Source of the DNA: Spirosoma sp.
GTDB taxonomy: Bacteria; Bacteroidota; Bacteroidia; Cytophagales; Spirosomataceae
Direction: 5' to 3'
NCBI RefSeq assembly: GCF_026391055.1
Contig: NZ_JAPLET010000003.1
Coordinates: forward strand, 1-64,000
DNA: 64,000 bases
The notes under the pieces: model-generated
What the model was told of the DNA's origin: nothing
The model's database searches: none
What the model saw: the letters and a program-made list of their open reading frames with translations, nothing else
Part shown: in pieces, positions 1,511 to 62,263 of the stretch
Layout of the letters: every line of letters begins with the position of its first letter
Numbering within the stretch: the stretch's first letter is position 1
Position numbers and translations under genes: made by a program

Positions 1511-1646
1511 GTTGACGGTTATTAAAAAATATTCGTCTCGTAAAATGCTCCTTAGTGAGACGAGTAATCATTCTTGAATTAGCATCCTTCAGAGACGACG
1601 AAGTGTTCATGCATCTGCGTCCAAAATGGGAGTTATTTGAAACACT
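1511..1646 (+). repeat. Interspersed GTCTC/GAGAC repeat, full-length copy
   Basis: This is one of the two most complete copies of a family found in at least 16 places here. It has an A/T-rich lead (GACGGTTATTAAAAAATA), a stem-loop with TCGTCTC (1533-1539) and GAGACGA (1557-1563), then a tail containing TTCTTGAAT, CTTCAGAGACGAC, TTCATG, TCCAAAATGGG and TTTGAAACA. The tail aligns closely with the copy at 43571-43712. It is non-coding. Confidence 0.75.
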
Positions 1647-1797
1647 CTTTCCCTAGACTAATTATGACTTTTGCTTATGTCTTACATCTGTAAGACAGTA
1701 CTTTTTTTTGTCTTATAGAATGTAGTATTTAACATACAAGTGATTACACAGTTCCAGAGCTTTAATTACAACCTTTGAGGGATTGGGGGAATCTGTC

Positions 1798-2190
1798 ATG
1801 AAATGGATTGACTTTACTACGATGAAGCCTGGTTATCTACTGAGTACGCTACTGATTGGTGTGAGTGTAGCTTGTCAAAAAGACACGTTGCCAGTACCCG
1901 CATCGGCTCATTCTGGTTGCTTTGACAATAATCCGGTCAGTCATCAGGCTAAGAACCTGAAAGGCATCATTGGGTATCGACAGGATATAGGGGTGTACAC
2001 GATCAACTATCATGTCCCAGGAACTATTGATAGTCAGTGGACGGGCTTAACCTGCAACTTGCCGACCAGTTATCAGACCGTTGGCAAAGAGGTTACGTTT
2101 ACGGGTGAGTACAGAACTACGTCGGGTAAAGTCGCTCCCCGATTGGGGGGAGAACAGATTTACTACCTGTATTTGTCCTCTGTTAAATAG
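1798..2190 (+). CDS. Small exported lipoprotein, unknown function
   Basis: The product is about 130 residues. The N-terminus MKWIDFTTMKPGYLLSTLL runs into a hydrophobic stretch ending in GVSVACQK, a plausible lipobox with Cys near residue 27. The mature part has two further Cys residues (HSGCFDN and LTCNLP) and a beta-rich pattern (VYTINYHV, EVTFTGEY, QIYYLYLS). The ATG at 1798 is preferred over a TTG at 1783 because the signal peptide then begins normally. It may be co-transcribed with the thioredoxin-like lipoprotein 38 bp downstream, which would suggest a shared envelope role. No known family was recognised. Confidence 0.65.
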   Translation: MKWIDFTTMKPGYLLSTLLIGVSVACQKDTLPVPASAHSGCFDNNPVSHQAKNLKGIIGYRQDIGVYTINYHVPGTIDSQWTGLTCNLPTSYQTVGKEVTFTGEYRTTSGKVAPRLGGEQIYYLYLSSVK

Positions 2191-2228
2191 GCTGGATTAA
2201 CATAATGCTCACTTGTACAACAGATTAG

Positions 2229-2834
2229 ATGAGGAGATTATACTGGCTAGTTCTCTCACTTGTGATATTCTTTAGTTGCCAAAACCACTCAGAAACAGAA
2301 ATCCCCAATTTCAAGGCCAAACTGTTCAGAGCGGATACCATTGATCTACAGGCGGTGTCTAGACATAAAGTCACCCTCTTAACTATTTGGTCAATTTTCT
2401 GCGGCCCCTGCCTCAAAGAATTACCGGAGCTCCAAAGTGTGTATGAGCATTACAAACTCGATAAGCGAGTGACTGTATTGACCTTAGCTCTGAATACGAA
2501 TCAGGAACTGATTCGCTTTTCGTCTACCTCTGATAGTGCCGACATCTACCGAAAAGTATTTGTGCATTCAGGCCTCAAACAACTTGCCCTACCTGTACTG
2601 ATTGGCACCAACTCTCCTTATCAGATAGAAAACGGCAGTGTTCGGCTAAGTGACCGAAAAGCCGCTACCCTTTTGAAGCATCTGTTCAAGTTCGAAGCAG
2701 TACCAACCACCCGAATTTACAATCAAAATGGACAGTTAGTTTTTGAGCAAAGAGGGGCTGAGACGTCAGAAAGTGGGTTACGCCATCATCGACTAAACCT
2801 AATGAAGAAACTAGACAGTTTAATCATCCAGTAA
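2229..2834 (+). CDS. TlpA/ResA-like thioredoxin lipoprotein
   Basis: The protein has 201 residues. An N-terminal signal ends in the lipobox IFFSC (Cys at about 17), so it is anchored to a membrane facing the periplasm. A thioredoxin-fold domain follows: TLLTIWSIFCGPCLKELPEL gives the redox CxxC motif (Cys-Gly-Pro-Cys) near residues 58-61, and VPTTRIYNQNGQLV supplies the cis-Pro strand and beta hairpin. The family (TlpA/ResA/AhpC-TSA-like) reduces disulfides in exported proteins. An insertion between about residues 95 and 150 is longer than in minimal TlpA. It lies just downstream of a small Cys-containing lipoprotein, a possible client, but that link is only positional. Confidence 0.85.
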   Translation: MRRLYWLVLSLVIFFSCQNHSETEIPNFKAKLFRADTIDLQAVSRHKVTLLTIWSIFCGPCLKELPELQSVYEHYKLDKRVTVLTLALNTNQELIRFSSTSDSADIYRKVFVHSGLKQLALPVLIGTNSPYQIENGSVRLSDRKAATLLKHLFKFEAVPTTRIYNQNGQLVFEQRGAETSESGLRHHRLNLMKKLDSLIIQ

Positions 2835-2908
2835 ATTGTCTGAAAGCAATATTTCTCAATACTAGTCAAGCTGTCCTTTAATAAGATAAATCACTTAACA
2901 TAAAGTTA

Positions 2909-3061: not shown

Positions 3062-3097
3062 TTTAGTTATACAACAGGTCGTAGGCGACAGATTGCA

Positions 3098-3165
3098 CTG
3101 GACAGATATTAAGAACTTACCGTCTTACATAAATCGCTCCCGAAGGAGACGAATCATTAACCATA
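3098..3165 (+). repeat. Interspersed GTCTC/GAGAC repeat, copy before the PH-like gene
   Basis: The lead reads GGACAGATATTAAGAAC, then CGTCTTACATAAATCGCTCC and GGAGACGAATCATTAACC. It is the same lead, stem and tail order as other family members, placed between the MITE-like element and the PH-like gene, about 85 bp before its start codon. Confidence 0.6.
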
Positions 3166-3248: not shown

Positions 3249-3662
3249 ATGAAAACCTATAAATCTAAAGTAGGACTTGAGCTAGCGACTCCCTTAGCTG
3301 GCTTATTTGTTGGTTTGGGTAGCTTGATGGCCTACCAAGGGCTTTGGGAAGGAGTCGGTATTATCCTGGTGGTTTCACTACTGATCCTGCACTTGTTTAG
3401 GACAACACGCTATAAACTGGACAAAAACACCCTTAATATTCAATCCGGTTTTTTCTTTCACAAAGAGATGCCCATTGCATCCATCAAAAAGATCATCGCA
3501 ACCCGAAACCCCATTAGCTCCCCCGCTCTCTCGCTGGATCGAATTGAATTAATCTATAATCGATTCGATAGTGTGCTCCTCTCTCCAGAGGACAAAACAG
3601 GCTTTATCGCTGAACTGCTCGCTCAAAATCCCGACATTGAAGTTCGGCTAAAGAGGGTATAA
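3249..3662 (+). CDS. PH-like-domain membrane protein (duplicated gene)
   Basis: The ATG at 3249 has AAAGGAG nearby and gives a 137-residue protein. An upstream in-frame extension runs through the repeat and is not credible. Two hydrophobic segments (about residues 12-30 and 33-52) form a hairpin in the inner membrane. The cytoplasmic part RTTRYKLDKNTLNIQSGFFF...MPIASIKKIIATRNP...LDRIELIYN resembles the short bacterial PH-like domain (DUF304/bPH group) of small YdbT-like proteins. The role is unknown. Its C-terminus and 3' flank are repeated at 1-136, so it arose by duplication. A domain search would settle the exact PH subfamily. Confidence 0.7.
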   Translation: MKTYKSKVGLELATPLAGLFVGLGSLMAYQGLWEGVGIILVVSLLILHLFRTTRYKLDKNTLNIQSGFFFHKEMPIASIKKIIATRNPISSPALSLDRIELIYNRFDSVLLSPEDKTGFIAELLAQNPDIEVRLKRV

Positions 3663-3857
3663 GTATAAGCATTGAGGAAGAGCTTAGAGTAACTTTGGCG
3701 ATAGCCGTATCACAATTCGAAACTAAATAAGACAGACGAAAACAGACATTTGTCGTGACGCGGGATTAATATGGTCAAGTGCTAGTAAATACTTTTGTCG
3801 AGGTAGGCAACCAACTGATCACTGGCGGCATCTTCCTAAAAAAGAACCATAAAAACC

Positions 3858-4452: not shown

Positions 4453-5979
4453 ATGGCCCTTTTTCTTATTCGTGTGCCAGCCAATTACCTGCGGGTTGTG
4501 CGGGTTGCGCTTATCGTTATCTTAAATTTAGTCCTCTTCAAAGTATTAGCCCAATCTAGAAAAGACAGCATTGATGTTTTTATCCACCAACAAATGCGGG
4601 AGAGGCATATTCCTGGACTTCAACTCGCCATCCTTCGCAACGGCCAGATTAATCAATTGAGTGCCTACGGGTTGGCCAATATCGAGCATAACATAAAGAC
4701 GACTAATCAAAGTGTATTCTCTATCAATTCAATCACTAAAGCCTTTGTTGGCGTGGCGATTATGCAGCTAGCTGAACAAGGAAAACTACGAATTGATACG
4801 CCTATCACGCAGTACATAGATAGCCTACCAACGGCTTGGCAAAGCTTAACGATACAGCAATTACTGACTAATACATCCGGCTTACCTAATATTATTGATC
4901 AGGATGAACACGTACTTGGAGGGGGACAAGAACAAGCTGCTTGGCTAGCTGTAAAAGCGCTACCCCTTGAATTCATTTCCGGTGATCGCTTTAGCTACAA
5001 TCAAACCGGCTATGTTATCTTAGGCAAAATCATTGATCAGGTAAGCGGCGTACCCTTCATCCAGTTTATTGACGACAATCAGTTTAAGGTAGTTGGCATG
5101 AACTTTACACGATTTGGTGACTCGGGCGATGTCATTCCGAATAGTGCGGGGGTATATACTAAACTAAGAAATGTGAACGGTAAATGGCTGGCTCGTGATG
5201 CGAAAAACCCGCTTGGTGTTGGCTTCGCGGAGTTTCCCACCTTCTTCCGAACGGCCACGGGTATTCTGTCCACAGTTCAGGACATGGCTCATTGGCTAAT
5301 GGCGTTACAGTCCGGTAAGCTGCTTAAAAAGAAAGAAAGCCTGGAAGCCCTATGGACACCGGCTCGATTGAACAATGGCCAAGTGGGTGGTTTTAATGAG
5401 CTGACCAATGGGTACGCGCTGGGTTGGCCGACGGTCACCCGAGATGAACACCCCGCCGTTGCTCCCGTGGGTGGTGGGCGGTCGGCGTTATTTGTCTATC
5501 CCAGGGATAACTTGTCGATTGTGGTACTGACTAATCTTCAGGGGGCCAATCCCGAGTGGTTTATTGACGAGATTGCTGGCTATTATTACCCTGAAATGCA
5601 TAAGGCGAACGGCTTTGGCCTCTCCCCCTCGCTTAAAACATTACGGACCGAACTACTCAAGAAGGGCTTTGCGAAAGCAATCCCCATCGCGAAAATGTTG
5701 CAGCAGAAAAATGCATCGTTCCACTTGAGGGGGGATCAACTGAATAGTTGGGGCTATTACTTATTGAGCGAAACAAAAGGGCCAGAGGCTTTGGCGATCT
5801 TTAACCTGATCGTGTCGTTGTATCCGCAAAGCGCGAACGCCTATGACAGCTTAGGCGAAGCGTATGCGACGATGGGAGATAAGGCTAACGCCATTCATAA
5901 CTATAAGCGCTCTTTGGAACTGGATGCAACGAACCAGAACGCGGCCAACCAGATCGCCCAGTTAAGTAAGACCCCTTAG
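4453..5979 (+). CDS. Serine hydrolase (class C beta-lactamase/esterase family) with C-terminal TPR
   Basis: The protein has 508 residues. A signal peptide or anchor (RVVRVALIVILNLVLFKVLA) is followed by a beta-lactamase-type domain to about residue 385. The SxxK motif is SITK (near residue 96), the second motif is YNQTGYVILGKI in place of the usual YxN, and the third region is APVGGGRSALFVYP. The last 55 residues form a TPR repeat (NAYDSLGEAYATMGDKANA). This is the standard plan of Bacteroidota periplasmic 'serine hydrolase/TPR' proteins acting on peptides, esters or D-amino acid substrates. Resistance to beta-lactams cannot be assumed. The Gln in place of the motif-2 Asn is a mild oddity. 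It appears to be transcribed alone. Confidence 0.85.
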   Translation: MALFLIRVPANYLRVVRVALIVILNLVLFKVLAQSRKDSIDVFIHQQMRERHIPGLQLAILRNGQINQLSAYGLANIEHNIKTTNQSVFSINSITKAFVGVAIMQLAEQGKLRIDTPITQYIDSLPTAWQSLTIQQLLTNTSGLPNIIDQDEHVLGGGQEQAAWLAVKALPLEFISGDRFSYNQTGYVILGKIIDQVSGVPFIQFIDDNQFKVVGMNFTRFGDSGDVIPNSAGVYTKLRNVNGKWLARDAKNPLGVGFAEFPTFFRTATGILSTVQDMAHWLMALQSGKLLKKKESLEALWTPARLNNGQVGGFNELTNGYALGWPTVTRDEHPAVAPVGGGRSALFVYPRDNLSIVVLTNLQGANPEWFIDEIAGYYYPEMHKANGFGLSPSLKTLRTELLKKGFAKAIPIAKMLQQKNASFHLRGDQLNSWGYYLLSETKGPEALAIFNLIVSLYPQSANAYDSLGEAYATMGDKANAIHNYKRSLELDATNQNAANQIAQLSKTP

Positions 5980-6004
5980 CGGTTGTCAATTTTTGTAATT
6001 ATCT

Positions 6005-6060
6005 GTTCTCATAAATCGCTCCTGCTTGAGACAAGTGAAGTTTACGCACCTGCTTTTTTA
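6005..6060 (+). repeat. Interspersed GTCTC/GAGAC repeat, partial copy
   Basis: The sequence GTTCTCATAAATCGCTCC, then TGCTTGAGACAAGTGAAG and TACGCACC, matches the stem region of the family. It lies 25 bp after the serine hydrolase stop, in a convergent gap before the minus-strand LytTR gene. Confidence 0.6.
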
Positions 6061-6170
6061 AACAAGACCTTTATTGGACTAACCCTCAAGGACTACCCGT
6101 ACATGTCTATTCGTTGTCTAATTGAAAAAGGATACCGACACGGTAGCCGGGCGGGCCAGGGTTGAGGTTC

Positions 6171-8744: not shown

Positions 8745-8837
8745 ATACGATTGACAGATTATCTGCGATTTCTTGTCGGGTAAAACTAGTTCATCTGAGT
8801 CATGTGCTGCGGAGACTAGTTTGCCGATGCTGAACCA

Positions 8838-8955
8838 TCATCTCACAAAAGGCTCCTCAGCGAGACATAAGAGTGTTCATGTTTTGGCTCCCGCTTGTAC
8901 GAAGGATCGTTCAGATATCTGCTTCAAAAATGGGGCGTTTGAAGATATGTTATTC
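8838..8955 (+). repeat. Interspersed GTCTC/GAGAC repeat, diverged long copy
   Basis: The segments ATCTCACAAAAGGCTCCTC, GCGAGACATAAGAGTG, TTCATG, ATCTGCTTCAAAAATGGGGC and GTTTGAAGA follow the order of the full-length copies at 1511 and 43571. The stem is partly decayed. It fills the gap between two minus-strand genes. Confidence 0.6.
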
Positions 8956-9081
8956 TACTAGTTATTCTTTGCTCAATGTTGGGTATAGTTAATCAAACGA
9001 AGTAAAATTTCGACGTATGTTCAAAAGATAGATGATAAAACTAAAACACAAGAAAGTTGTGCTGAACTAATCACCCGTATA

Positions 9082-14944: not shown

Positions 14945-15431
14945 AACCTCTCGATTAAAGGGTGACTACACCTGCATTGTTTTCAGCAAGTTAAAGCCTT
15001 ATTTAGATTCAACAGATAAGGCTTTTCTGCCAACAGATTATCTCAGTTCACCTTGCTTCTTTTAAGATAACCTGTTAACAACTATTCCGCTCCGGTTCAC
15101 CGTATACGACTGATGGCGTTTGACAGATATTAAAATATATGTCTTGCAAAAACGCTGATTTTTATAGTATTCAAAACGGGTGTTTTTCCCATTGCGAACA
15201 AGTAACCTAAAGTTGAATTTGCCCTTGGTCAATCGATGAACCGGCGGTTGTACTTTTAAGCTTAGGAACAAAAGAACCAAACTCTAAATGGTTAATTAGC
15301 TGGCAGTTGTTGTACGTTGAAAATAGGCATGTGCTTGAAGTTGCCATTCCCAATTCAAAATATTCTAATGGTAACCATTACCATTTGTCTCCATCAATTT
15401 ATAAGTTCTAAACCAATAATCTCCTCACTGT
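14945..15431. other. Intergenic with one repeat copy, no gene
   Basis: There is no convincing coding frame. The stretch holds the repeat copy at 15116-15165 and A+T-rich DNA before the gene at 15432. The segments AAAGCCTTATTTAGATTC and AGATAAGGCTTTT (14994-15025) form an imperfect hairpin with a short T-run that could end the previous transcript. Confidence 0.4.
15116..15165 (+). repeat. Interspersed GTCTC/GAGAC repeat, 5' part only
   Basis: The segments GCGTTTGACAGATATTAAAA and TATATGTCTTGCAAAAACGCTG match the lead and first stem arm of the family. The second arm is missing. Confidence 0.55.
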
Positions 15432-16277: not shown

Positions 16278-16299
16278 CTTGACGCGTTGTTACTGACTG

Positions 16300-16365
16300 A
16301 ATAAAATCTCAAAATACGCTCCTCTTAACGAGACGGACGAATCTTCATGTATCTAAACTTTATGG
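16300..16365 (+). repeat. Interspersed GTCTC/GAGAC repeat copy
   Basis: The segments AATCTCAAAATACGCTCCTC and AACGAGACGGACGAATC, then TTCATG, match the family. It lies in the convergent gap between the zinc-motif gene and the minus-strand membrane protein. Confidence 0.6.
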
Positions 16366-17000: not shown

Positions 17001-17204
17001 GTCTACTTATCTCTCAGAATTAAGCTGGCCTAAAGGAACACCGTTCCTGGTTGGGCACCAACAGAAACAGGTTTATAGGTAGCTGAACAGTATGAATGGT
17101 TAGACGTTGATTGACGCCACAAGGGCTACTCATCTTGACTGAATCAATTCTAGTGCACTTGCTACCTTTACCTTGACAGAATGTAATTGGCGTTAACCGT
17201 CCTA

Positions 17205-17285
17205 ACCCTTGAAGTCTTAAAATACCCTCCTCCTTTAGACAAAGGACGATCATGATTGGGCTCCTGCCTGAAACGGCAAAGTAGT
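17205..17285 (+). repeat. Interspersed GTCTC/GAGAC repeat, diverged copy
   Basis: The segments AAGTCTTAAAATACCCTCC and TTTAGACAAAGGACGATCATG, with CCTGAAACGGC further on, match the order of stem, ATCATG and GAAAC tail in better copies. It is decayed. Confidence 0.5.
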
Positions 17286-17433
17286 CATGCATCTGCTCAT
17301 TGATGCGGGGGTTAATTGGTCAGTTATTTCAATATCTGTTAATGACTATGCGTAGCATACGACCCCTTTAAAAAGGACAACCCCCGGCTACCTCAATCAA
17401 TGACCAGGCGCTGTACTTTGCCATTCACTTCAC

Positions 17434-17867: not shown

Positions 17868-18263
17868 GATACAAGTCGGTCGGTTAACTTATTTTAAGAC
17901 GACAGATGGCTAACGAAGTCATAGTAAAATAGTACAATAATGTTCACGTAGTTTCATAAGACTACGTTGTACTTTAGTAAGCTACGTTGTATAACTACCA
18001 TCCTGTAAAGCAGTCTGAGAATTTAGTAAGAAAGGCAAAAAGCACATCGTATGTCCAACTGTCTTAGAAGAAAGGGGTAAAATAGATTCCATGTCCTCGC
18101 ACTGAGCCTTCGGCTTCTATGCACTTTTAAGTGGTGCAGCATAAAGATATGAGCGTTTTTACGAGACACTTACTTTTTACGATCTATCTAATACAATTAG
18201 TTGCATACGTCCAGTGAACGTCCGGGCGGGGGTTGCTAAACTGTTGTAGGAAGCAGCCGGCCA
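17868..18263. other. Intergenic, no gene; direct repeat of TACGTTGTA
   Basis: No coding frame is supported. TACGTTGTA occurs twice about 22 bp apart near 17963 and 17985, and a reverse-strand copy of the interspersed repeat lies at 18141-18200. The sequence upstream of the broken response regulator is A+T-rich and may hold its promoter. Confidence 0.35.
18141..18200 (-). repeat. Interspersed GTCTC/GAGAC repeat, only minus-strand copy
   Basis: Read on the minus strand, the order is TTAGATAGATCGTAAAAAG, then GTGTCTCGTAAAAACGCTC, the lead and first stem arm of the family. The second arm is lost. All other copies seen are on the plus strand. Confidence 0.5.
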
Positions 18264-19306: not shown

Positions 19307-20281
19307 TTAGGCCGATACAACCTCCTGCTCAACTTCTTCAGTTACATTATTTATCACATAATTGACAGCTTTTTGAGCTTGCCCCGATGCCCGGAAAATA
19401 AGCGTTTTGTCACCTTTTAAAGCTGACAACCAATTTTGCAGGTACGCAGCTGCATTAGTCAAAAGCCGGTGGTCCGTCAGGTCAAGGCCGCAACTGCTGG
19501 CTAAATAACAGGCTCCAATTTCAGCCGTCAATTCCTCTTTCGCGTAACGCTCCCCTCCGAAACCATCCGAATGAACTAACTCCTCCCGGTTCAGGCGATC
19601 GCGGTGGCCAGTTGAGTGAATCAGTTCATGAAATAATACGCAGTAATAGGCCTCAAGGCAATCGAAAGCTGTAGGACGGGGCATATTGACGACATCTAAA
19701 AACGGGCTGTAATAGGCACGGGATGGATCGACATGCACGATTTCGGGTGCATTTGAATAACCTGCATATAAGGCATCACAGGCATTGTAGCTATACACTT
19801 CGTCAAGGGCATCGGGTATTTTCAACTCTGGCAAATCAATTGTTACCCCTTCTACGTCGGCCACGTTAAAAACGAAATAATGCTTAAGGAGCGGGACGCC
19901 CACCTTTTTGGTTTTGGTCTCGCCTTTGTTATTCGTTACCTCCTTTTCTTTCTCCAGAACGCTCCAGAAAACAACCAGATTACCCGGCGCACCTTTACGG
20001 ATTGTACCACCCAATTCAGCAGCTTGCTTAAACGTCAGAAAGTACGGGCGTTCATACGTTGCGCACCCTAGCAGTACGCTGTTTATCCCTGTATATGGAC
20101 GTTTGCTGATGTAATTTTGAGCAACTTCGACCCGGCCATCTTGCAGGATGCCCCACCGTTTACGCCAGGGGATAAAGCCTTTTTCAAGTTCAGAAACGAT
20201 GAGGTCAGTAACACGGGCGTATAGGTCGGACGCGACCCCGGTCTTATTGCCTCGCTGTGCGGAAGCCTTTGCATTTTGCAT
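19307..20281 (-). CDS. ardC: ArdC-type antirestriction / ssDNA-binding metallopeptidase-like protein
   Basis: The product has 324 residues. The N-terminal half (YARVTDLIVSELEKGFIPWRKRW, YTGINSVLLGCATYERPYFLT, LGGTIRKGAPGNLVVFWSVL) is the ArdC N-terminal ssDNA-binding domain. The C-terminal half is an MPTase-type zincin with HELIHSTGH (near residue 217) and a following Glu-rich helix (AKEELTAEIGACYL). In plasmids such proteins protect incoming DNA during transfer and relieve host type I restriction. I chose the Met at 20281 (MQNAKAS), because the conserved leader shared with two other genes lies between it and the upstream Met at 20317. It ends in a terminator. Confidence 0.9.
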   Translation of the reverse strand: MQNAKASAQRGNKTGVASDLYARVTDLIVSELEKGFIPWRKRWGILQDGRVEVAQNYISKRPYTGINSVLLGCATYERPYFLTFKQAAELGGTIRKGAPGNLVVFWSVLEKEKEVTNNKGETKTKKVGVPLLKHYFVFNVADVEGVTIDLPELKIPDALDEVYSYNACDALYAGYSNAPEIVHVDPSRAYYSPFLDVVNMPRPTAFDCLEAYYCVLFHELIHSTGHRDRLNREELVHSDGFGGERYAKEELTAEIGACYLASSCGLDLTDHRLLTNAAAYLQNWLSALKGDKTLIFRASGQAQKAVNYVINNVTEEVEQEVVSA

Positions 20282-20287
20282 TATAGT

Positions 20288-20412
20288 CGCCCGATGTAAC
20301 ACGTCGGTGCAGCGCAATTAGAACACTATAAAGATACGGCACTTTTGGCCTCCCTACAACATATATAACTGACATACAGAAGTTTATGCGAAAGCCTTCG
20401 CCCCCTTTCGTC
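20288..20412 (-). promoter_or_regulatory. Shared promoter and leader, copy before ardC
   Basis: On the minus strand a -7-like box TATCTTTATAGTGTTC is followed by TTGCGCTGCACCGACGTG, then TTACATCGGGC and the ATG 7 bp later. The blocks CCGACGT and ACATCGG form an imperfect palindrome. Further upstream lie TTGTAGGGAGG (a possible -33 region) and ACGAAAGGGGGCGAAGGCTT. The same blocks recur before 22069 and 27474, so these three units are probably co-regulated. Confidence 0.7.
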
Positions 20413-20626: not shown

Positions 20627-20632
20627 CGCTAC

Positions 20633-21794: not shown

Positions 21795-22069
21795 AGCTGA
21801 GAGTATTGGCCGCCAACTCGACGGGTTTGTTGATAAAGGAAAAACAAGGTGGCTTCGATGGCTTTACCGAATAGCCAATCCGCTTCGTCTGGGTCACATT
21901 GGTGAGCCGGGTTTTCTATGTCGGCGGCTTCTAGTCCCCGCCACATATCAGCATCAGCAAAAGGGTCAGAGAACACAAATCCCTGCTCCCGCGCCTGGGC
22001 AATCAGGTCGCGATTCAGGCGGTTGTCAATACCCCGCCTTATCGGGCATGTCGCTACTGAATACATCAT
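21791..22069 (-). CDS. Small plasmid hypothetical protein, first gene of an operon
   Basis: The product has 92 residues (MMYSVATCPIRRGIDNRLNR...DMWRGLEAADIENPAHQCDP...LFGKAIEATLFFLYQQ). It follows the shared promoter and leader by 6 bp, which confirms the start and shows that it belongs with ardC and the methylase-helicase in one regulatory group. It overlaps the next gene by 4 bp. The function is unknown; a plasmid-transfer or anti-restriction accessory is a guess from context. Confidence 0.6.
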   Translation of the reverse strand: MMYSVATCPIRRGIDNRLNRDLIAQAREQGFVFSDPFADADMWRGLEAADIENPAHQCDPDEADWLFGKAIEATLFFLYQQTRRVGGQYSQL

Positions 22070-22075
22070 GGATTA

Positions 22076-22200
22076 GCCCGATGTAACACGTCGGTGCCGC
22101 GCAATGGGAACACTATAAAGATACGAAAACAGCGCCACCCCTACAAGCTATTTAACTGAATTATAGTATTTTACACTAAAACCCTGATCCCTTTCGTCAA
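22076..22200 (-). promoter_or_regulatory. Shared promoter and leader, copy before the small-gene operon
   Basis: The minus strand has TTGTAGGGGTGG, then a 16-17 bp gap, TATCTTTATAGTGTTCCC, TTGCGCGGCACCGACGTG and TTACATCGGGC, with the ATG 6 bp later. It is nearly identical to the ardC copy over about 50 bp. The upstream GAAAGGG block (near 22190) is partly conserved. Confidence 0.7.
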
Positions 22201-27474: not shown

Positions 27475-27483
27475 CCTGGTTTT

Positions 27484-27600
27484 GCCCGAAGTAACACGTC
27501 GGTGCCGCGCAGAAGTAACACTATAAAAATACCGCTTGTCAGGCGGTATGGCAAGGTTTCAGGAAGATATAGTCGGAGCCTTCGCCCCCTTTCGTTATCC
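27484..27600 (-). promoter_or_regulatory. Shared promoter and leader, copy before the methylase-helicase gene
   Basis: The minus strand has ACGAAAGGGGGCGAAGGCTC, later TATTTTTATAGTGTTAC, TGCGCGGCACCGACGTG and TTACTTCGGGC, with the ATG 9 bp later. It is slightly more diverged than the other two copies, but all blocks are in the same order. Confidence 0.7.
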
Positions 27601-27900
27601 GATTCGTCAACGTGCATTAAAGCATTACAAACGTCGGTTTTCCTAAAAAGTAGATTAAGTACTTTAGGACTCCCTACCTATTCATGAAACAAAACACCTT
27701 TCTTTAAAGCCACATTACAGAGCTGGATTTGGTCATTAACTAACCCAGCAAGCTGATTTGTATGCTACATCTTTAATAGAGCGCCACTCTAGGGCTTAAT
27801 CATTGTGTTGGTAAAGTAGTACATCACGGTTTACACTGGGGTAATCTATACGAAAAAATACCCATCGGGTAGTCTTAACTTCAACTGGAACAATGAATTG

Positions 27901-27927
27901 GGCGAAAACCTACTTTTATCTTGCTTT
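27901..27927 (-). repeat. Distal iteron, left arm of an inverted pair
   Basis: On the minus strand it reads AAGCAAGATAAAAGTAGGTT, matching the origin iteron consensus, and is flanked by GGCGAA on the outer side. It is the reverse complement of 28103-28129 with one mismatch over 27 bp. Confidence 0.75.
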
Positions 27928-28102
27928 TAGATTTGGATAAAGCATCACTAATAATTGATGATTGTCAGCCTCCGTAGTTTTGCCTGTCTATTTGATGGCT
28001 AGAACTCCCTCCCAGGTACAATCATTATTTGGCTAGGCTCGTGCAGTAGTTGATTCACAGGATGTTGTATGTGAAGTTAATATCGAAACCAGCGTCTTCC
28101 TT

Positions 28103-28129
28103 AAAGCAAGATAGAAGTAGGTTTTCGCC
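28103..28129 (+). repeat. Distal iteron, right arm of an inverted pair
   Basis: It reads AAGCAAGATAGAAGTAGGTT and then TTCGCC. It is identical to iteron 1 of the origin array over the 21-bp unit. Confidence 0.8.
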
Positions 28130-28303
28130 GTTGGAGACTGCCAGGAATCTTGCTAAATTTAAATTTTCAGCCTACTGCCCGCTGATTTTGTGCTTAACTA
28201 GTGTGGCTGATTTGCAACGAGCTAATACAAACTGCATCATAAATCGCTGAATTGTATGGTCTGTATGGTTGATAGCCCATGATTTTGACATTATCATTAC
28301 CGA

Positions 28304-28340
28304 TAACGAATTGGGCAGTTATCAACTGCCCAATTCGTTA
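28304..28340. other. Perfect 17-bp-stem hairpin, three-base loop
   Basis: TAACGAATTGGGCAGTT and AACTGCCCAATTCGTTA are perfect reverse complements around ATC. It has no T-run, so it is not a standard terminator. It lies 30 bp from a distal iteron. Confidence 0.7.
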
Positions 28341-28369
28341 AAACCCATTTTTAGCCTGTAAATCTGTAG

Positions 28370-28390: not shown

Positions 28391-28430
28391 AATGTATCAG
28401 GCTATTTTGATCATAGGCATGCAGTAGGAC

Positions 28431-31133: not shown

Positions 31134-31156
31134 ATAGCACTGGTTGAGCGGGGCAG

Positions 31157-35963: not shown

Positions 35964-36243
35964 AGTGGGTGAGCAGTCGTTTTAGTATAAAGGTAAACGA
36001 TTCTTTATTTTACCCTGAGAGTAAAACTAATTTTAAGGGAATACTTTTTCAATTTTTGATTTAAAAATTTGATCCCAAACTCATGAGCATACCTTCTACC
36101 TCAATACCCCTTTTGATCAATTACAACTTGTTTTTTTTTAATTGTTCTGAAATTGAAAACTTGATTATTTGATACTTGTAGGCCCTTTTTTATATAGTTA
36201 GCTCTCTATGGGACAACTAGTTGCGATGATTTTGATTAGCACA
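35964..36243. other. A+T-rich origin flank
   Basis: The stretch is strongly A+T-rich (for example around 36001-36070 and 36120-36170) and contains no gene. It could be the unwinding region next to the iterons, and it includes the promoter of the minus-strand gene at 35118-35963. Confidence 0.45.
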
Positions 36244-36410
36244 AAGCAAGATAGAAGTAGGTTTAGGCAAGATAGAGGTCGGTTTAGGCAAGATGAAAGT
36301 AGGTTTAAGCAAGATGAAAGTAGGTTCAGGCAAGACAGAAGTATCCACAATTGACCTCTTAAGCAAGATGGGAGTAGGTTTGAGCAAGATAGAAGTAGGT
36401 TTAAAGCAAG
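36244..36410 (+). repeat. Iteron array of the replication origin (seven 21-bp units plus a half)
   Basis: Units start at 36244, 36265, 36286, 36307, 36328, 36361 and 36382, with an AAAGCAAG half-unit at 36403. The consensus is AAGCAAGATAGAAGTAGGTT plus T. Units 1-5 are directly head to tail and a 12-bp gap precedes units 6-7, so spacing stays near whole helical turns (21 and 33 bp). The end of unit 5 departs from the consensus and reads GTATCCACA (36341-36349), one base from the DnaA box TTATCCACA. This is the classic layout of a Rep_3-type origin. Confidence 0.92.
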
Positions 36411-36580: not shown

Positions 36581-36644
36581 AAGCAATATAAAAGTAGGTT
36601 TACGCGGTACCGTAAAGCAAGATAGGTGCTTTACATATTGCTTT
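36581..36644. promoter_or_regulatory. Rep operator: one iteron plus inverted half-iterons
   Basis: An iteron variant AAGCAATATAAAAGTAGGTT lies at 36581-36600. It is followed by the palindrome CGGTACCG (36605-36612) and an inverted half-site pair, AAAGCAA (36614-36620) and TTGCTTT (36638-36644), just before the rep start. Inverted half-iterons in the rep promoter normally bind Rep dimers and repress rep transcription. Confidence 0.75.
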
Positions 36645-36690
36645 GGTAGTGATTATTCATATTTTTGAGCTAGACTTACCAAGGAATAAC

Positions 36691-37662
36691 ATGGGAGAAC
36701 TCGTCCATATTCAAGAGCCGCTCCGGCTATTATTGTCTCGAAATAATTTCGATTTACTAGAAAGACGAGTGTATTGGCTGATACTCAGACACATTAAGCA
36801 GCTCCAGATCTTGAGACCCGCTGAGGTGGAAACCCTACCAAGTGAATTTCCGGCATTCAAGATTCCCATCACTGATTTACAGCTGCCTAATTCGTCTTCT
36901 GAGGTAAATTACTCGACTTACAAGCGGGTTGCCCAGCGACTTACATCCCGGCAGCTGTACCTTGATTCTCCCGCGCAGCATGAGTTTACTTCAGTAGTCG
37001 TTTTCCCGATGGCTCGCTACAGCAGGGGTGTACTAACGGTCGAGGTTAATAAGCACTTAGTGCCTTATATGATCGATCTGAGTAAGGGGTATACTAAGCT
37101 CCAGCTTCAGGCGGCTTTGTCTCTCAATAGCCAGTATGCTCAGAATCTATATACCAGGCTCTGTAAGTTCCTGGACACGGGTATTTGGCGGGTTAGCGTT
37201 ACAGATCTAAAAGAAATTCTTGACGCCCAACAGTACGTTCGCTGGTCCAACTTCAAGCAGACCGTACTGGCTCGGGCGATGGAAGAAATCAACCAGAAGA
37301 CGGATATCGAAGTTTTTGTTACCGAAAAGAGAGAAGGCCGCTTTATCACCACGCTGATCTTTACGATAAAGAGGCAGTCTCGTAAAGACAACAAAGCGTT
37401 TGATGCCTTCAATGAGGAAATGGACATGGTGTATGCTCAACCGACTGAAGAACTTCAGAGTAAAGCGTCCCAAGTTCTGTTACAACATTACCGATTTACC
37501 AGTGCCCAGATACGTGAAATCATTAGTAATGAGAATCTGCTACAAGAATTTATTCGGCTCGACGTGTTGATCCAGAAGGGGTTCATTGATGTAAAGACGA
37601 ATCCAACCAGGTACATCGCCGGCATCTTATTTAAAAAACCGAAAGCTTCGGCTACCAAGTGA
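36691..37662 (+). CDS. Plasmid replication initiator, Rep_3 superfamily
   Basis: The product has 323 residues. The Met at 36691 follows AAGGA and is preferred over the TTG at 36643. It contains two winged-helix regions: LLLSRNNFDLLERRVYWLIL with IPITDLQLPNSSSEVNYSTYKRVAQRL, and LQAALSLNSQYAQNLYTRLC with VSVTDLKEILDAQQYVRWSN, FKQTVLARAMEEINQ and TLIFTIKR. This is the RepB/RepE-type plan in which monomers bind direct iterons to open the origin and dimers repress their own gene. The neighbouring iterons and half-iteron operator fit this. No ParA/ParB pair follows. Confidence 0.92.
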   Translation: MGELVHIQEPLRLLLSRNNFDLLERRVYWLILRHIKQLQILRPAEVETLPSEFPAFKIPITDLQLPNSSSEVNYSTYKRVAQRLTSRQLYLDSPAQHEFTSVVVFPMARYSRGVLTVEVNKHLVPYMIDLSKGYTKLQLQAALSLNSQYAQNLYTRLCKFLDTGIWRVSVTDLKEILDAQQYVRWSNFKQTVLARAMEEINQKTDIEVFVTEKREGRFITTLIFTIKRQSRKDNKAFDAFNEEMDMVYAQPTEELQSKASQVLLQHYRFTSAQIREIISNENLLQEFIRLDVLIQKGFIDVKTNPTRYIAGILFKKPKASATK

Positions 37663-38181: not shown

Positions 38182-38306
38182 GTTGGGTAGTCACAAGACA
38201 CTCGAACAAAATCAGTCTATTTCACCGTCTTATAAATTATAGTTTGCGAGATTTGGTGAATAACCAAGATTTCACCAATTTTAAGTTCCAAGTAGATTCT
38301 CTCTTT

Positions 38307-39521
38307 ATGGCTGATACATCCATCTCGCTACAGCATTCCCAAAACCAGAGAAGCAACCAGACCCTCGGCAAGACAATCACCCGATATACCGTTAGTCAAC
38401 TGATTCGTTATTTTGCGGCCGACCTGCCCAAAGCAAGCAATTATCCCCGACATGCCAGGGCTTATGTAGCGTTTTGTCTTAAGCAAGGTTTTGGAATAGA
38501 TGGATTAAGCTTTACCCGATTTACCACAGAGTTACCCCCTAACCGGGTATCGCCGATCCGTAAATTTTTACTATTCTATCAGACCATTGGTAGTCCAGCG
38601 GTCGTAGCCGACCCAAAGACCACTAAAATACCGCCAGCCGCTAATGAACTGATCTTGCGATTTATTCGCGAAGCAAAAAATTTGCGGGGTGACCGCTCCA
38701 AGGAAACCTACACCAAAGCACTAAATGCCTTCTTCATTTATGTTGATCAGCAGCTTGCGCAGGGTCAACCGGCCTCATTCAGTGGATTGACAGTTTCTGA
38801 TTTTGTGCAGCAGCTGAAAGATAACCAATACTCTGCGTTTACCATAAACCTATATCTGTCGGCCATTAAGCAGTTAGCAGCCTGGTGTATCCGAAAACGC
38901 GAGGATATCAAGTTGGTCGAAGATCAACTCAATGCATTGCGAGACATTGGAGACGTAAGGGGATTGGCTATCGAGCGAACCTTTTATAAAGACAGTTTGG
39001 AATCCCAGGAACGGCAACAGGTCTTAGGAGATATTGAGACGGCACGGGATAGATCTGTGCTTGTTTTATTGGGACTGGAGGGGTTACGAACCGTTGAAGT
39101 AACCCGGCTAAAGTTGGGTGATTTAGACTTCGAAAAGCATCAGTTACTGGTGCTGGGAAAAGGGAAAAGCACAAAAAAAGCCATTAAATTTTTCGCCGGA
39201 TGTCGTACGGTTATACAAACTTATCTGGAAGAAACAGGCCGGTGGCCCCTTCCCTACGGCCAACGTGGGGAGTATCTATTTGATAATCTAAAGACGTATC
39301 AAATACGATATATAGTCGATAAGCAATTGAAAAAACATGGCCTGAAACGAACAGGTATGTCTGCCCACAGTTTACGGCATACGGTAGGCCAACTCTTACT
39401 AGAAGAAGGTGTTAGTTTAGAACATGTGCAGCAGCATCTGCGCCATGAAACAATGGAAACTACCCAGTTTTATACCAAGAAAAAGACCCGAAAAACGTAT
39501 TTCCAGCAGATGCCCGATTGA
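38307..39521 (+). CDS. Tyrosine recombinase (XerC/D-type integrase)
   Basis: The product has about 404 residues from the Met at 38307; TTG and GTG starts up to 38244 are possible. An N-terminal SAM-like domain (TVSDFVQQLKDNQYSAFTIN) is followed by the catalytic domain with all expected residues: first Arg in LEGLRTVEVTRLKLGDLD, Lys in VLGKGKSTKK, HSLRH (His and Arg, about 353), HLRHE (about 377) and the Tyr in TTQFYTKKK (about 388). It may resolve plasmid multimers or insert cassettes. It lies 645 bp beyond rep on the same strand, which favours multimer resolution. No attachment site was identified. Confidence 0.9.
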   Translation: MADTSISLQHSQNQRSNQTLGKTITRYTVSQLIRYFAADLPKASNYPRHARAYVAFCLKQGFGIDGLSFTRFTTELPPNRVSPIRKFLLFYQTIGSPAVVADPKTTKIPPAANELILRFIREAKNLRGDRSKETYTKALNAFFIYVDQQLAQGQPASFSGLTVSDFVQQLKDNQYSAFTINLYLSAIKQLAAWCIRKREDIKLVEDQLNALRDIGDVRGLAIERTFYKDSLESQERQQVLGDIETARDRSVLVLLGLEGLRTVEVTRLKLGDLDFEKHQLLVLGKGKSTKKAIKFFAGCRTVIQTYLEETGRWPLPYGQRGEYLFDNLKTYQIRYIVDKQLKKHGLKRTGMSAHSLRHTVGQLLLEEGVSLEHVQQHLRHETMETTQFYTKKKTRKTYFQQMPD

Positions 39522-43367: not shown

Positions 43368-43570
43368 GAAATCGAAATAACCTCTCAACCCCCTTATTAA
43401 TTGGGCATAATTTCCGCTAATAATGTTTTTTGCAATAATAATCAAGGAAAAATAAGGCTTTTGGTCAACGATTTCAGGCTTAGAAATCATCGTCTGATTT
43501 TGACGATTGGTCACGGACAACCGTTCATTCATCGAAGGTTTAATTTTGTTTAGTTTTTGGGTGCGGCGGA

Positions 43571-43712
43571 TAAATTGAACAGAAATAAAAGTTGAGTGTC
43601 TCTCGAAAACGCTCATCCTTGAGACGAGTAATTATTCTTGAATAAGCAACCTTCAGAGACGACAAGGTATCATGATCTGCTTCCAAAGTGGGGCGTTTAA
43701 TGAAACAGCGTG
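43571..43712 (+). repeat. Interspersed GTCTC/GAGAC repeat, full-length copy
   Basis: The lead AACAGAAATAAAAGTTGAG is followed by TGTCTCTCGAAAACGCTC, CTTGAGACGAGTAATTATTC, TTGAATAAGCAACCTTCAG, AGACGAC, TCATGATCTGCTTCCAAAG and TGGGGCGTTTAATGAAACA. It aligns with the 1511-1646 copy over its whole length and fills the convergent gap between the LytTR gene and the amidohydrolase pseudogene. Confidence 0.75.
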
Positions 43713-43750
43713 TTTTAATAATTGTCAACTTCTATCCGTAGCATGTGTAT

Positions 43751-47049: not shown

Positions 47050-47100
47050 CAATCTCAAAATACCCTCCTCAAGTTGAGGCTAAGTTCGTCAGCCACTGAT
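47050..47100 (+). repeat. Interspersed GTCTC/GAGAC repeat, diverged copy
   Basis: The segments CAATCTCAAAATACCCTCCT and CAAGTTGAGGCTAAGTTCG match the stem region of the family with a decayed second arm. It lies between the divergent MutS-like and kinase genes. Confidence 0.5.
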
Positions 47101-49789: not shown

Positions 49790-49836
49790 GTGAAAAAGGA
49801 ATCTGTTCATAAAATAGGGCGTTTGGAGAAACGGCG
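49790..49836 (+). repeat. Interspersed GTCTC/GAGAC repeat, 3' tail only
   Basis: The segments AATCTGTTCATAAAATAGGG and GCGTTTGGAGAAACGGC match the tail of full-length copies (TCCAAAATGGGGCGTTTGAA). The stem part is absent. Confidence 0.45.
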
Positions 49837-52775: not shown

Positions 52776-52845
52776 ACCTGGTTACTGGATGTTATATGGC
52801 AAGGTAAATAAAACTATAAATTTGGTTTGCGTTGGTTAGTGATCG

Positions 52846-52890
52846 CGTTGGACAGATGTTAAACTATACGTCTCATAATACGCTTCTTTT
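52846..52890 (+). repeat. Interspersed GTCTC/GAGAC repeat, 5' part
   Basis: GTTGGACAGATGTTAAACTA is followed by TACGTCTCATAATACGCTTC. The lead and first arm match the family; the second arm is lost. It lies between two minus-strand kinase genes. Confidence 0.55.
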
Positions 52891-55529: not shown

Positions 55530-56135
55530 AAAATCGCGAGGCTCGACTGGCCCCGCAGGTCTGGCTATAACCTGCGGGCAGCCGATACGGCCCCTTTTAT
55601 TAACTGGGTTTAACGCCAGTCATTTGACTGAATTAGGAGCGACTACCACCATCAGTATGTAGAATTTCATGACCGGGTGATGCCGGATCGTCGGGAAGCA
55701 ATCATTTCGCAAGGGTGGCTGGAGGGTTGGTCGTTAACCAGACAAGTAGCGCTCTTCCCCGAGGCTGTCCGTGACTAGCCGGGCGTTGTTGAGCGCGGCT
55801 GAGCACTTCCTAAAAGAAATAAGTGTAAGCTGGCTTGTCATCCCCTGGTTCAACCGATTCATTCTCTCTTTGCATAAAAAAGTATACATATAATCTGACT
55901 TTTGCCAGTGTACTTACCTGGAGGTAAAATACATCATAAACATCTATAATATCTAAATATAATCTATACAATTTTAGAGAAAGTTAGCTGCCTTATGAAG
56001 AGGGCGAACGGACCATATGCCTCCAATTACGCTGGACGGGTAGGAAAACCTGATCTTCTTACAAAACGATCCAATCAGAAAGCAGACGCCTGTAGTCTCA
56101 GTAGTCTTGTGTACGAGCGATTTATGAAATAAATA
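55530..56135. other. Intergenic, no gene; one hairpin near the kinase start
   Basis: An inverted repeat CCCGCAGGT / ACCTGCGGG (55552-55560 and 55570-55578) lies just upstream of the kinase start on the minus strand and could act in its leader. A short plus-strand frame (about 55650-55779, reading DRREAIISQGWLEGWSLTRQ) may be a gene remnant. The 55870-55975 stretch is A+T-rich. Confidence 0.35.
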
Positions 56136-57993: not shown

Positions 57994-58087
57994 AATTAGT
58001 TGATTAGAATACCCGCTCGGATAAAGAACTTTGTCCTGTAATTATACCCTGGACTTGACATGGCTGCCTACTTATGGACGAACCATT

Positions 58088-58172
58088 GAGTCTCATAAAT
58101 TGCTCCCCTCTGAGACGAAAGAGCTTTTATAGTACGCATCAATATGTAACCCTTTAGAGAAACGTTTAAGTG
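58088..58172 (+). repeat. Interspersed GTCTC/GAGAC repeat copy
   Basis: GAGTCTCATAAATTGCTCC is followed by CTCTGAGACGAAAGAGC and a diverged tail ending TTTAGAGAAACGTTTAAG. The stem arms GTCTC/GAGAC are intact. It lies in the divergent gap between the CarboxypepD gene and the CHASE3 kinase. Confidence 0.6.
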
Positions 58173-58347
58173 AACAGCTTTAAAAATGGAAATACACTTT
58201 CTGTTCATCCTGTCATCTCCATTTGCAACCCTAGTTCGCCGGTCCCCTCAAGTAATCAAAAAAGAAGCATCATAGGCCTTTTAATATAAAGTAACAATAC
58301 ATAGTTTAGCTACTTACTATACTAGTTGTTACTTTTTATGTCTGTAC

Positions 58348-60477: not shown

Positions 60478-60720
60478 CCCGCACCCGTTGAGGAGAGAAT
60501 TGTCGCTGTCCGCTATTAGAAAAGACCCCTATGGTGATCGATTTTGAAGCGAGGGGCTGATGGGTTAAATCCGTTCTGACGATCCGCTTTTAGCTATACC
60601 ATACGGAATGTCAGGGACGGGCCAAATGAGTCGTCAACGTTGGGTGAAAGCGGGTAACGACAAGGGCTCACGGGTTTGAATAGCTACCGCTGACGAAATA
60701 ACGGTGTGCCCCTCTTGTAG

Positions 60721-61131
60721 ATGACTGGACTAATTGCCTTTTTACAGCAGTATCCACAAACCATACGCGCAATGACTCCACACGGAACCCGCTTGGTGAC
60801 CATTAATGGCGTACAGGCGAAACTGATTATAGACGAAAAACAACAGGTCAGTGTCCTGCGCTCCCTGACCGGCACAACGCCTACTGACACCCTGGTCGAT
60901 GAACTCCCTCTTCCGGCTAAACCCCTGTGGCTGCGCCTAATCGTGCGGGCACTCAAGTGGTATCGTACCAAACTAGCCTCTAGTATAGGGCTGGGCTGCG
61001 TTTATGAACCCTCCTGTTCGCGCTACGCTGAACTGGCCCTGCGTCAGCATGGCTTCCGGAAGGGATTCTATTCTACGCTGAAGCGCCTGCACCGGTGCCG
61101 GCCCGGCGCGGGGGGTGTTGATCTTCCCTAG
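60721..61131 (+). CDS. yidD: YidD-type membrane-insertion factor with an N-terminal extension
   Basis: The product has 136 residues. The C-terminal 65 residues carry the YidD signature: LGCVYEPSCSRYAELALRQH, GFRKGFYSTLKRLHRCRPGA, then GGVDLP. This small inner-membrane-associated protein helps YidC/Sec insert membrane proteins. Here about 75 extra residues precede it (FLQQYPQTIRAMTPHGTRLV, INGVQAKLIIDEKQQVSVLR), which look like a small beta-alpha domain with no known match; usual YidD proteins are 70-85 residues. The amphipathic helix before the signature (WLRLIVRALKWYRTKL) is kept. It has no neighbours of the rnpA/yidC kind, so this is probably a second copy carried on the plasmid. Confidence 0.85.
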   Translation: MTGLIAFLQQYPQTIRAMTPHGTRLVTINGVQAKLIIDEKQQVSVLRSLTGTTPTDTLVDELPLPAKPLWLRLIVRALKWYRTKLASSIGLGCVYEPSCSRYAELALRQHGFRKGFYSTLKRLHRCRPGAGGVDLP

Positions 61132-61501
61132 TTAGCTGTACTTCCCTTTACCCATCAGGCGAGACTACCTGGCTCAACTCATGAGGGTATTTTTCACACA
61201 GTCAGTGGGATGACCACCTGATTCAGAACGAGCCAAAACGTATGTGACTGGTTGTGTTTGACAGATAGTAAAAAGCAAATGTATCGTAAAACGCTCCTCC
61301 ATGAGACAAGTAGCGTTCAGATAACAACCTTTTAAATGATTAAGCCGGATTTTGTAAAAAAACATAGCCCTATGTGCTAATTATGGCCTTTTTCGATAAA
61401 TAGCTATAACGCTGGGCAACGGCCCTTTTTATGAGTAGCACCGGTCATGGCCCCTGTTGGCTGGGCTTGACGTACTTTTTCCATGATTCATCACTAAAGT
61501 A
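61132..61501. other. Intergenic with a repeat copy, no gene
   Basis: Apart from the repeat at 61256-61335 I see no coding frame. A frame on the minus strand (61174-61365) crosses the repeat and is not protein-like. Confidence 0.35.
61256..61335 (+). repeat. Interspersed GTCTC/GAGAC repeat copy
   Basis: TGTTTGACAGATAGTAAAAA is followed by TGTATCGTAAAACGCTCC, CATGAGACAAGTAGCG and TTCAGATAACAACCTTT. The lead and second arm are good; the first arm is changed to GTATC. Confidence 0.65.
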
Positions 61502-61870
61502 ATGAACGATCAATTTTCACCTGACGGCATTTATCAGGTTCGAATCAGCCTGCTGGAGATGGCCATGAGCCATTGGGTATTTGAACCCGCTATTTATCGC
61601 GTGTCTGATAATGTCCAACTCTTCAACATGGGAAAGCAAGTCTGGAGTGCGGATTCGATTGAGTGGACCTCCAACTCCATCGTTGTGCTACAGACCCGTC
61701 AGTATCCTGGCCTGATCTTCTGCGATCTAACTTTAGATATGGCGCTCGGGATGGGCGAAGCTATTCGGGGCAAAATTAAGAATCGAGATTGGAAAACCGG
61801 TAATCCCATGAGCGAACTTCCCGCTGCGTTCACCGGAACGCTGGCCGAAATTAAAGAGTGGCAAAGTTGA
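61502..61870 (+). CDS. Small soluble hypothetical protein
   Basis: The product has 122 residues, no signal and no membrane segment. It has a beta-rich start (GIYQVRISLLEMAMSHWVFE, YRVSDNVQLFNMGKQVWSAD, SIEWTSNSIVVLQTRQYPG) and a helical end (FTGTLAEIKEWQS). The pattern 'V..W....W....I' resembles small proteins that describe modified or secreted substrates in related genomes, but no family was recognised. It is transcribed alone. Confidence 0.55.
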   Translation: MNDQFSPDGIYQVRISLLEMAMSHWVFEPAIYRVSDNVQLFNMGKQVWSADSIEWTSNSIVVLQTRQYPGLIFCDLTLDMALGMGEAIRGKIKNRDWKTGNPMSELPAAFTGTLAEIKEWQS

Positions 61871-62263
61871 ATTGGCCCACGACCACCCGTATGCGATTAA
61901 CAAGACCGGAGTGGCGAGGGGGCGTACCGGGTCGGTGCACCGATTACTGTCTACCTGACAGGTAGCAAAACTTGTCGTCTCATTATGTGGCCGTATGCAA
62001 CGGATTACATTTAACAGATATTAGAAAAAATTACTGTCTCGCAAAAACCCTCCTCCTTGAGACGAGGAGACTTTTTAGATTAATTGACGGATTTTGTGCG
62101 AAACGGCAAACGCACCCACTTTATAAGTTGAAGGTGGTTTCCCGGTATGATGAACTGGTCATCTTTATCGATAATACGTAGGATTTGCCCGAATTCATAA
62201 ATAAACAGGTTGTAATCGGTTTATAAAAGAAGTGATAGAGCCAATTTAACTCAGCAACCCGTC
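61871..62263. other. Intergenic with a repeat copy, no clear gene
   Basis: The repeat copy at 62007-62075 occupies the centre. A partial repeat-like segment (AACTTGTCGTCTCATTATG, 61968-61986) lies just upstream, so two family members may be side by side. A short frame (61972-62181) crosses the repeat and is not supported. Confidence 0.35.
62007..62075 (+). repeat. Interspersed GTCTC/GAGAC repeat copy with an intact stem
   Basis: ACATTTAACAGATATTAGAA is followed by ACTGTCTCGCAAAAACCCTC, CTCCTTGAGACGAGGAGAC and TTTTTAG. The stem GTCTC/GAGAC is intact. In this copy a T-run follows, so it could act as a terminator. Confidence 0.65.

Follow-up and report, generated by a model that had tools for sequence, protein, structure and literature searches.

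A repeat family between the genes of the window

The stretch of DNA analyzed here, the window, comprises 64 kb of the 66,787-bp contig C17 of a Spirosoma genome (G000), and short repeats with an ordered internal plan lie between many of its genes. The initial annotation had listed 15 positions for this family; an iterative nhmmer profile seeded with six window copies recovered 14 of them, with matches starting at 1493, 3080, 5977, 8836, 15101, 16305, 17205, 18209 (minus strand), 43562, 49797, 52834, 58082, 61239 and 61992, and added one at 56016 that had not been listed. Neither the listed position 47050 nor a ‘possible’ copy at 61968 was reached by this profile. The stem pattern, allowing up to three mismatches, occurs in two window copies, against 0.00 expected from 100 shuffles. 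A core-only profile (described below) gives 13 matches at 11 places in the window, 12 on the plus strand and one on the minus strand, none of them inside an open reading frame (ORF) of at least 150 aa and none between 18.2 and 43.5 kb, where the plasmid backbone lies, in agreement with the intergenic position, the nearly uniform strand and the gap first described. The ordered plan stands as well, while the length of about 135 bp does not: a full copy spans about 190 bp, with 36-bp outer inverted repeats beyond the plan originally drawn.

The core of the element, (G)TCTCANAAAACGCTCCNNNNTGAGAC, is an imperfect dyad of 26-28 bp in which the half-sites (G)TCTCANAAAAC and GTCTCANNNNGG surround NGCTC. 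Downstream (3′) of the core follow an inner dyad, GAAGNAG...CTGCTTC, and then a right box (R′), GGGCGTTTNNNGAGAC, which is an inverted copy of the core left half. A clear R′ is present in 107 sites, and in 54 of these it lies at the commonest distance, 46 bp, from the exchange coordinate (the position within the core near which DNA shared between arrays ends, see below); some sites have a longer loop before it. The imperfect 36-bp outer inverted repeats, present in some copies only, may be old transposon ends. The copies in the window are as follows.

1493..1682, plus strand: full site of about 190 bp, with outer inverted repeat, core, R′ and 3′ outer inverted repeat, its 3′ end worn (nhmmer, E 1.9e-41)
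3080..3161, plus strand: left outer inverted repeat and core (nhmmer)
5977..6109, plus strand: core and right part (nhmmer)
8822..8986, plus strand: core, long-loop right arm and R′ (nhmmer, E 8.4e-28)
15101..15206, plus strand: left outer inverted repeat and core left half (nhmmer)
16294..16354, plus strand: worn core (weak, E 0.027 and 0.031)
17185..17361, plus strand: core, R′ and 3′ outer inverted repeat (nhmmer, E 1.7e-29)
18147..18209, minus strand: left outer inverted repeat and core left half, the clearest minus-strand copy (nhmmer)
43559..43747, plus strand: best complete site, with both outer inverted repeats (nhmmer, E 2.9e-47)
47050..47090, plus strand: probable worn core, TCTCAAAATACCCTCCTC..TGAGG (by eye; no profile reaches 47050)
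49797..49835, plus strand: R′ fragment (nhmmer, E 0.01)
52834..52887, plus strand: left outer inverted repeat and core left half (nhmmer)
56016..56126, no single strand: added site, left part on plus and worn core on minus (weak, E 0.046 on minus)
58082..58199, plus strand: core and right arm (nhmmer); the cassette start here is common to G026b 12226 (86.7%, an exchange pair)
61239..61337, plus strand: left outer inverted repeat and core (nhmmer)
61992..62106, plus strand: left outer inverted repeat and core (nhmmer)

Between the repeats, the cargo of the window includes histidine kinases, a redoxin, a PF00144-family hydrolase, a MutS-domain protein, an S1/P1 nuclease and a piece of an amidohydrolase. 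The backbone, which is free of sites, carries two genes that bear on what follows.

36643..37662, plus strand: Rep3 replication initiator (Pfam PF01051, PF21205)
38244..39521, plus strand: tyrosine recombinase (PF00589)

C17 is probably a plasmid, because it combines the Rep3 gene with 21-nt iteron-like repeats (36242-36406 of the window) and an ArdC gene; its two ends do not overlap.

One-way arrays in Spirosoma and its relatives

A search of the genome and its relatives, suggested in the initial annotation, found the family on further contigs of the same genome (C3, C13, C16 and C22, and by profile also C7 and C26) and in related genomes. Used as a DNA query, one copy matched 18 of 59 genomes, its own included, all of them of the window's genus; one site, searched as DNA against plasmids, returned no match. 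The exact core pattern was found in 22 stretches from named genomes (10 Spirosoma, 8 Dyadobacter, and one each of Fibrisoma, Larkinella, Nostocales and Blastocatellia), compared with about two matches expected by chance. A 14-base gapped pattern occurs in 29 of 36 genomes of the genus and in 47 of 200 genomes of the family (most of the genus among them), and its backward version gave zero in every row; a looser pattern, allowing three mismatches, was found in 16 of 29 genomes, with one match in the backward control (G030). No sites were found in G008, G015 and G017. Besides Spirosoma, Dyadobacter has sites, whose core is a variant (TCTCACAAAACGCTCGAACGTGAGAC, with GACGTTTTATGAGAC about 60 bp further on, by eye), and single cores occur in Larkinella and Fibrisoma. 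Spirosoma and Dyadobacter belong to one family in GTDB; NCBI taxonomy places them in the Cytophagaceae and the Spirosomataceae, respectively.

The core profile, built from 131 sites, was run over 1.95 Mb of stretches from nine genomes, which had been chosen for earlier site matches, so that the density found does not stand for a genome average. It yielded 339 matches at E<0.05 (317 places after merging within 250 bp), and the best E in a reversed-sequence control was 0.12. Ten 20-kb stretches outside arrays, from three genomes (L040, L052, L079, L083, L084 and L092-L096), contained no match to the full-element profile. Only five of the 339 match midpoints fall inside ORFs of at least 150 aa, where 74% of random positions fall, and the copies are far from being equally frequent inside genes. 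In the 19 stretches with at least five matches, 291 of 318 share the majority orientation of their stretch, and the ORFs of at least 150 aa in the same stretches are divided almost evenly, 608 with that polarity and 591 against it. Neighboring sites on the same strand are spaced by a median of 3.1 kb (272 intervals). The array on the G035 chromosome extends from 4,401,150 to 4,613,760 (about 210 kb), with no site in the 20 kb flanking either side.

These repeats are almost certainly the junction sites of a gene-cassette array. Genes that recur in the arrays encode histidine kinases, regulators, oxidoreductases and transposases (identified mostly by eye from sequence starts), and the orientation of the genes suggests that cassettes keep their own promoters. 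No recombinase is prominent among the 30 recurrent gene families listed from arrays. Array polarity does not follow the replichore, assuming an origin opposite dif. Of the early proposals, a binding site for a segregation protein comes nearest, insofar as the element is best understood as a site bound by a protein, in this case a recombination site.

Shared cassettes and the probable point of exchange

Comparison of the arrays by blastn revealed common blocks of up to 6.5 kb, at 85-98% identity between genomes (the highest value being 97.8%) and at different places in the arrays. An exchange coordinate was assignable in 263 sites. Of the 340 ends of the 85 segments of at least 85% identity, 54 are no more than 12 bp away from the exchange coordinate of the core, TCTCANAAANGCTCCNNNNTGAGAC. 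A shifted-site control of 300 trials gave 1.28 such ends on average and 7 at most. Both partners lie near a core exchange coordinate at 18 of 170 ends. Ends at cores account for 41 of 176 in the 44 between-genome segments and for 13 of 164 in the 41 within-genome segments. In aligned pairs (29 ends), identity stops in TCTCNNAAA on one side and begins at CTC on the other; some ends in further aligned pairs lie elsewhere. For pairs at 97-99% identity the exchange falls within -4..0. Close pairs include G000C7 10842/G035a 118981 (97.5%) and G000C3 73187/G024a 271859 (97.8%) between genomes, and G035a 66324/G035c 39610 (99.0%) within one.

Together with the array structure, these breakpoints point to an element that is quite probably the junction site of an integron-like cassette array, exchanged at its core by a site-specific recombinase, likeliest of the serine type. 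Such a recombinase would exchange DNA at the core, allowing the DNA between two direct sites, a few genes in length, to be released, presumably in circular form and carrying one site. The circle would re-enter at another core only in the polarity that the site allows, and because of this restriction one-way arrays would grow on chromosomes and plasmids regardless of gene strand. The joints of circles or rearranged arrays would lie at TCTCANAAA/CTCC. The system likely serves, in the manner of an integron, to store and shuffle the accessory genes of Spirosoma and its relatives.

Several observations weigh against exchange of this kind. The remaining 286 of the 340 segment ends are not at sites (insertion sequences were left in, and worn sites missed). 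Pairs at 80-90% identity often differ at +4 to +7 though their right side is common, and base -1 is a mismatch in one shared-left pair and in one shared-right pair. Overall, the exchange thus maps only to about -4..+7, whereas a serine recombinase should give 2 bp. Neither an empty site nor a circle was seen, and recombination itself was not observed.

The element could instead be a degenerate miniature inverted-repeat transposable element (MITE) that carries a res site, similar to the Tn3-derived inverted-repeat miniature elements (TIMEs), and that spread by transposition, cassettes being shared through homologous recombination between copies. The 36-bp outer inverted repeats are in keeping with this explanation, as is the presence of res sites in some Tn3-derived TIMEs (described in PMC13367494), but the outer repeat is optional, and no target duplication, a check proposed in the initial annotation, was seen by eye among the few full copies, which is weak evidence since exchange replaces the flanks. 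Uniform polarity, the sharp borders of the G035 array, and the concentration of many breakpoints at a single position of imperfect sites, without scatter along them, leave such a history improbable. Polarity, borders and the optional outer repeat, along with exchange inside the element, also count against the plain MITE that was suggested at first. The history may also be a mixed one, in which a MITE came first and exchange at its res site later.

Candidate recombinases and comparison with known systems

The recombinase required for exchange at the core was sought among serine and tyrosine recombinases. Serine recombinases (PF00239) were found in all ten site-bearing genomes tried and in neither of two site-less ones (G017 and G008), while the site-less G015 has one PF00239 protein, of another type; in G035, three of six PF00239 matches lie inside the main array. 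A candidate subfamily of about 190 aa, of the invertase/resolvase type, has the DNA-invertases 4m6f and 3uj3 as its nearest solved structures (E 1e-46). R′ starts 4-14 nt after the recombinase stop codon in six of eight Spirosoma loci (G035, G024, G009, G023, an S. oryzicola plasmid, and a broken copy in the window's genome), and four of the R′ scores after recombinase genes exceed those of all 1289 other array ORF ends. The S. oryzicola stretch contains four further core matches at E<0.01, all of one polarity, and two core-like half-sites lie just upstream of the recombinase gene in G035 (by eye). The likeliest array enzyme is probably this serine recombinase of about 190 aa, encoded within a copy of the site. 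The broken copy in the window's genome (contig C14, near 248.4-248.9 kb) is the only one of the subfamily seen there; because this copy is broken and the sites are worn, the array of the window may now be static, resembling the clusters of attC sites lacking integron-integrases (CALINs), or it may be served in trans.

An imperfect palindrome like GATGCAAC...GTTGCATC lies upstream of the serine recombinase start codon in L323, L321, L325, L331 and L338 (by eye), and is a possible operator or accessory site. Relatives of the recombinase on Hymenobacter plasmids (L333-L335) are preceded, judged by eye, by half-sites similar to GTCTCAGAAAACG (with an exact copy in one of the three) and TGTCTC..CTGTTCTCA; in one of them, TCTCAGAAAACG precedes the gene. 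They may belong to a sister system.

The assignment of this enzyme also has evidence against it. The subfamily is not present in every site-bearing genome: in G026, which has 21 sites, the single PF00239 protein is a diverged one, and the copy in the window's genome is broken. The PF00239 counts mix several recombinase types. The G023 locus, counted among the eight, is a 97-residue 3′ fragment, there is no site within 3.6 kb of another fragment (L049), and the two Spirosoma loci that lack R′ at the expected place have a full site further downstream (G019) or a worn box (S. rhododendri). Neither of two Dyadobacter loci scores with the Spirosoma R′ matrix, although one look-alike is visible by eye, and R′ is absent from all three Hymenobacter relatives, which are 67% identical. 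Plasmids of many bacteria often carry relatives at about 60% identity, and the candidate is consequently a subfamily rather than the family. Resolvases normally favor excision, so insertion needs explaining.

Two tyrosine recombinases were considered and rejected as the array enzyme. That of the window backbone is present in 15 of 36 genomes of the genus, is not correlated with arrays, and is unmatched in the site-bearing G004, G005, G009, G011, G013, G014, G019, G020, G025, G026, G031 and G032; nine loci of this type, mostly with 1.5-kb flanks, have no adjoining site above chance, and the neighboring rep region accompanies the gene in two genomes (long DNA matches). The presence of an IntI/XerA-like protein, L098, is likewise not correlated with site counts. 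An IntI/XerA-like tyrosine recombinase, 428 aa long in the window's own genome, was matched at E 1e-40 in 75 of 200 genomes of the family (L204-L233), and several of its copies are broken.

A divergent integron or CALIN, with attC-like sites recombined by an IntI-type tyrosine recombinase from elsewhere, is a very unlikely source of the arrays, in spite of the many cassettes in one polarity with no linked integrase, as in CALINs (which lack one, as described in PMC8618304). The order of the boxes resembles the R″-L″-L′-R′ plan of attC, and L098 scores 187.6 bits with TIGR02249, below the cut-off of 265. However, none of the 36 genomes of the genus encodes an IntI over that cut-off, and L098 lacks relatives in two site-bearing genomes, G009 (29 sites) and G019 (33 sites), and has them in the site-less G015. 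Among PF00589 proteins of at least 45% identity, only XerC and XerD are common to G000, G009, G019 and the Dyadobacter genome G205. The attC box pair RYYYAAC...GTTRRRY occurs in none of 69 sites on either strand, nor in the shuffles. Covariation is lacking as well: among 2498 column pairs in 69 ungapped sites none stands out (best z 3.98, without formal correction), and two R″/R′ positions do not covary within a site (z -0.69) or with the previous site (z 0.79). Their score with the following site, which would be the pairing partner in a cassette circle, even falls below that of shuffles (z -2.07). Sites could still fold through conserved sequence alone.

Exchange by the host XerCD at sites like those of the pdif modules of Acinetobacter plasmids is no likelier than an integron. 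XerC and XerD are the tyrosine recombinases common to all six genomes compared, and a Rep3 plasmid is involved. Against this, the dif core of the genus, ATAATTTATATTATGTTAAGT, is a single-copy sequence in all 14 genomes tried, the agreement of its XerD arm with the array core is poor (about 6/11, by hand), and the site-less G008, G015 and G017 all carry dif; XerC and XerD are also present in G017 and G008. The chromosomal dif of the genus (L316, G035 C1 2416051-2416170) is TTGTTGTATAATTTATATTATGTTAAGT, of 28 bp with limits set by hand, around a 21-bp core. A structured RNA (one of the guesses of the initial annotation) or a regulatory element, with which short inverted repeats between genes would agree, is hardly credible, as the element has no match in Rfam at gathering scores, no compensatory changes and no tie to gene strand.

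C17 has other features besides the sites. A second repeat family in the backbone has 61-nt copies at 20277-20337, 22064-22124 and 27472-27532 (GCCCGATGTAACACGTCGGTGC...AACACTATAAAGATAC), the two non-reference copies being 80% and 85% identical to the reference, and these perhaps represent a shared promoter or operator. Positions 22417-34004 hold a restriction-like defense block, with genes for an Eco57I-like methylase/helicase, a ResIII helicase and an N6/N4 methylase, followed by a YhcG nuclease (32832-34004). A 139-bp direct repeat, 91% identical, lies at 1-139 and 3581-3719.

In the titles and abstract openings of the open-access papers that the searches listed, no comparable system was found, nor anything on Spirosoma with an integron and gene cassettes. 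The balance tips slightly toward a cassette-array system of a third kind, which evolved independently of integrons and pdif modules, in which a serine recombinase is encoded in its own site and which extends across related genera. If so, cassette arrays have more than one origin and rely on unrelated enzymes, and long libraries of multi-gene cassettes can be the work of serine recombinases, which are mostly regarded as resolvers or inverters. The core and the R′ box would provide a sequence handle for finding such arrays, the named recombinase could be tested, and the arrays would offer a route of accessory gene flow in Spirosoma and its relatives.

Integron cassette arrays have one polarity, and the arrays described here, too, are series of cassettes, each ended by a recombination site, in one orientation. 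In contrast to integrons and CALINs, they are accompanied by no IntI over the cut-off and show neither attC R boxes nor covariation; their cassettes hold several genes on either strand, exchange would take place in the left half of the site, and the enzyme is probably of the serine class. The pdif modules of Acinetobacter, in which short dyad sites bound adaptive gene modules on plasmids and sometimes on chromosomes (according to PMC6449649), are similar in having short dyad sites around gene modules on both kinds of replicon. They differ in that the array site here is distinct from the host dif, and its copies stand in direct orientation over about 210 kb in one array. With Tn3-derived TIMEs (PMC13367494) the element shares its miniature size, in some copies outer inverted repeats, a possible res site and a candidate enzyme akin to serine resolvases; unlike TIMEs, it forms arrays of dozens, its outer repeat differs from Tn3 ends, and no target duplication was seen by eye.

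The Gin, Hin and Mpi invertases share their protein family with the candidate recombinase, which matches 4m6f, presumably Gin of phage Mu, at E 1e-46 and scores 82 bits with the Mpi model, below the cut-off of 272. They also share a dyad of about 26 bp, which is the geometry of hix sites. Judged as a site of the res/hix type, the array element has a 26-28 bp dyad, an exchange that would map to -4..0 in the closest pairs and to about -4..+7 overall, and, at six of eight Spirosoma loci, the candidate recombinase gene next to R′. In contrast to the inversion of promoters by these invertases, the sites here are direct repeats, between which blocks of genes would be exchanged.

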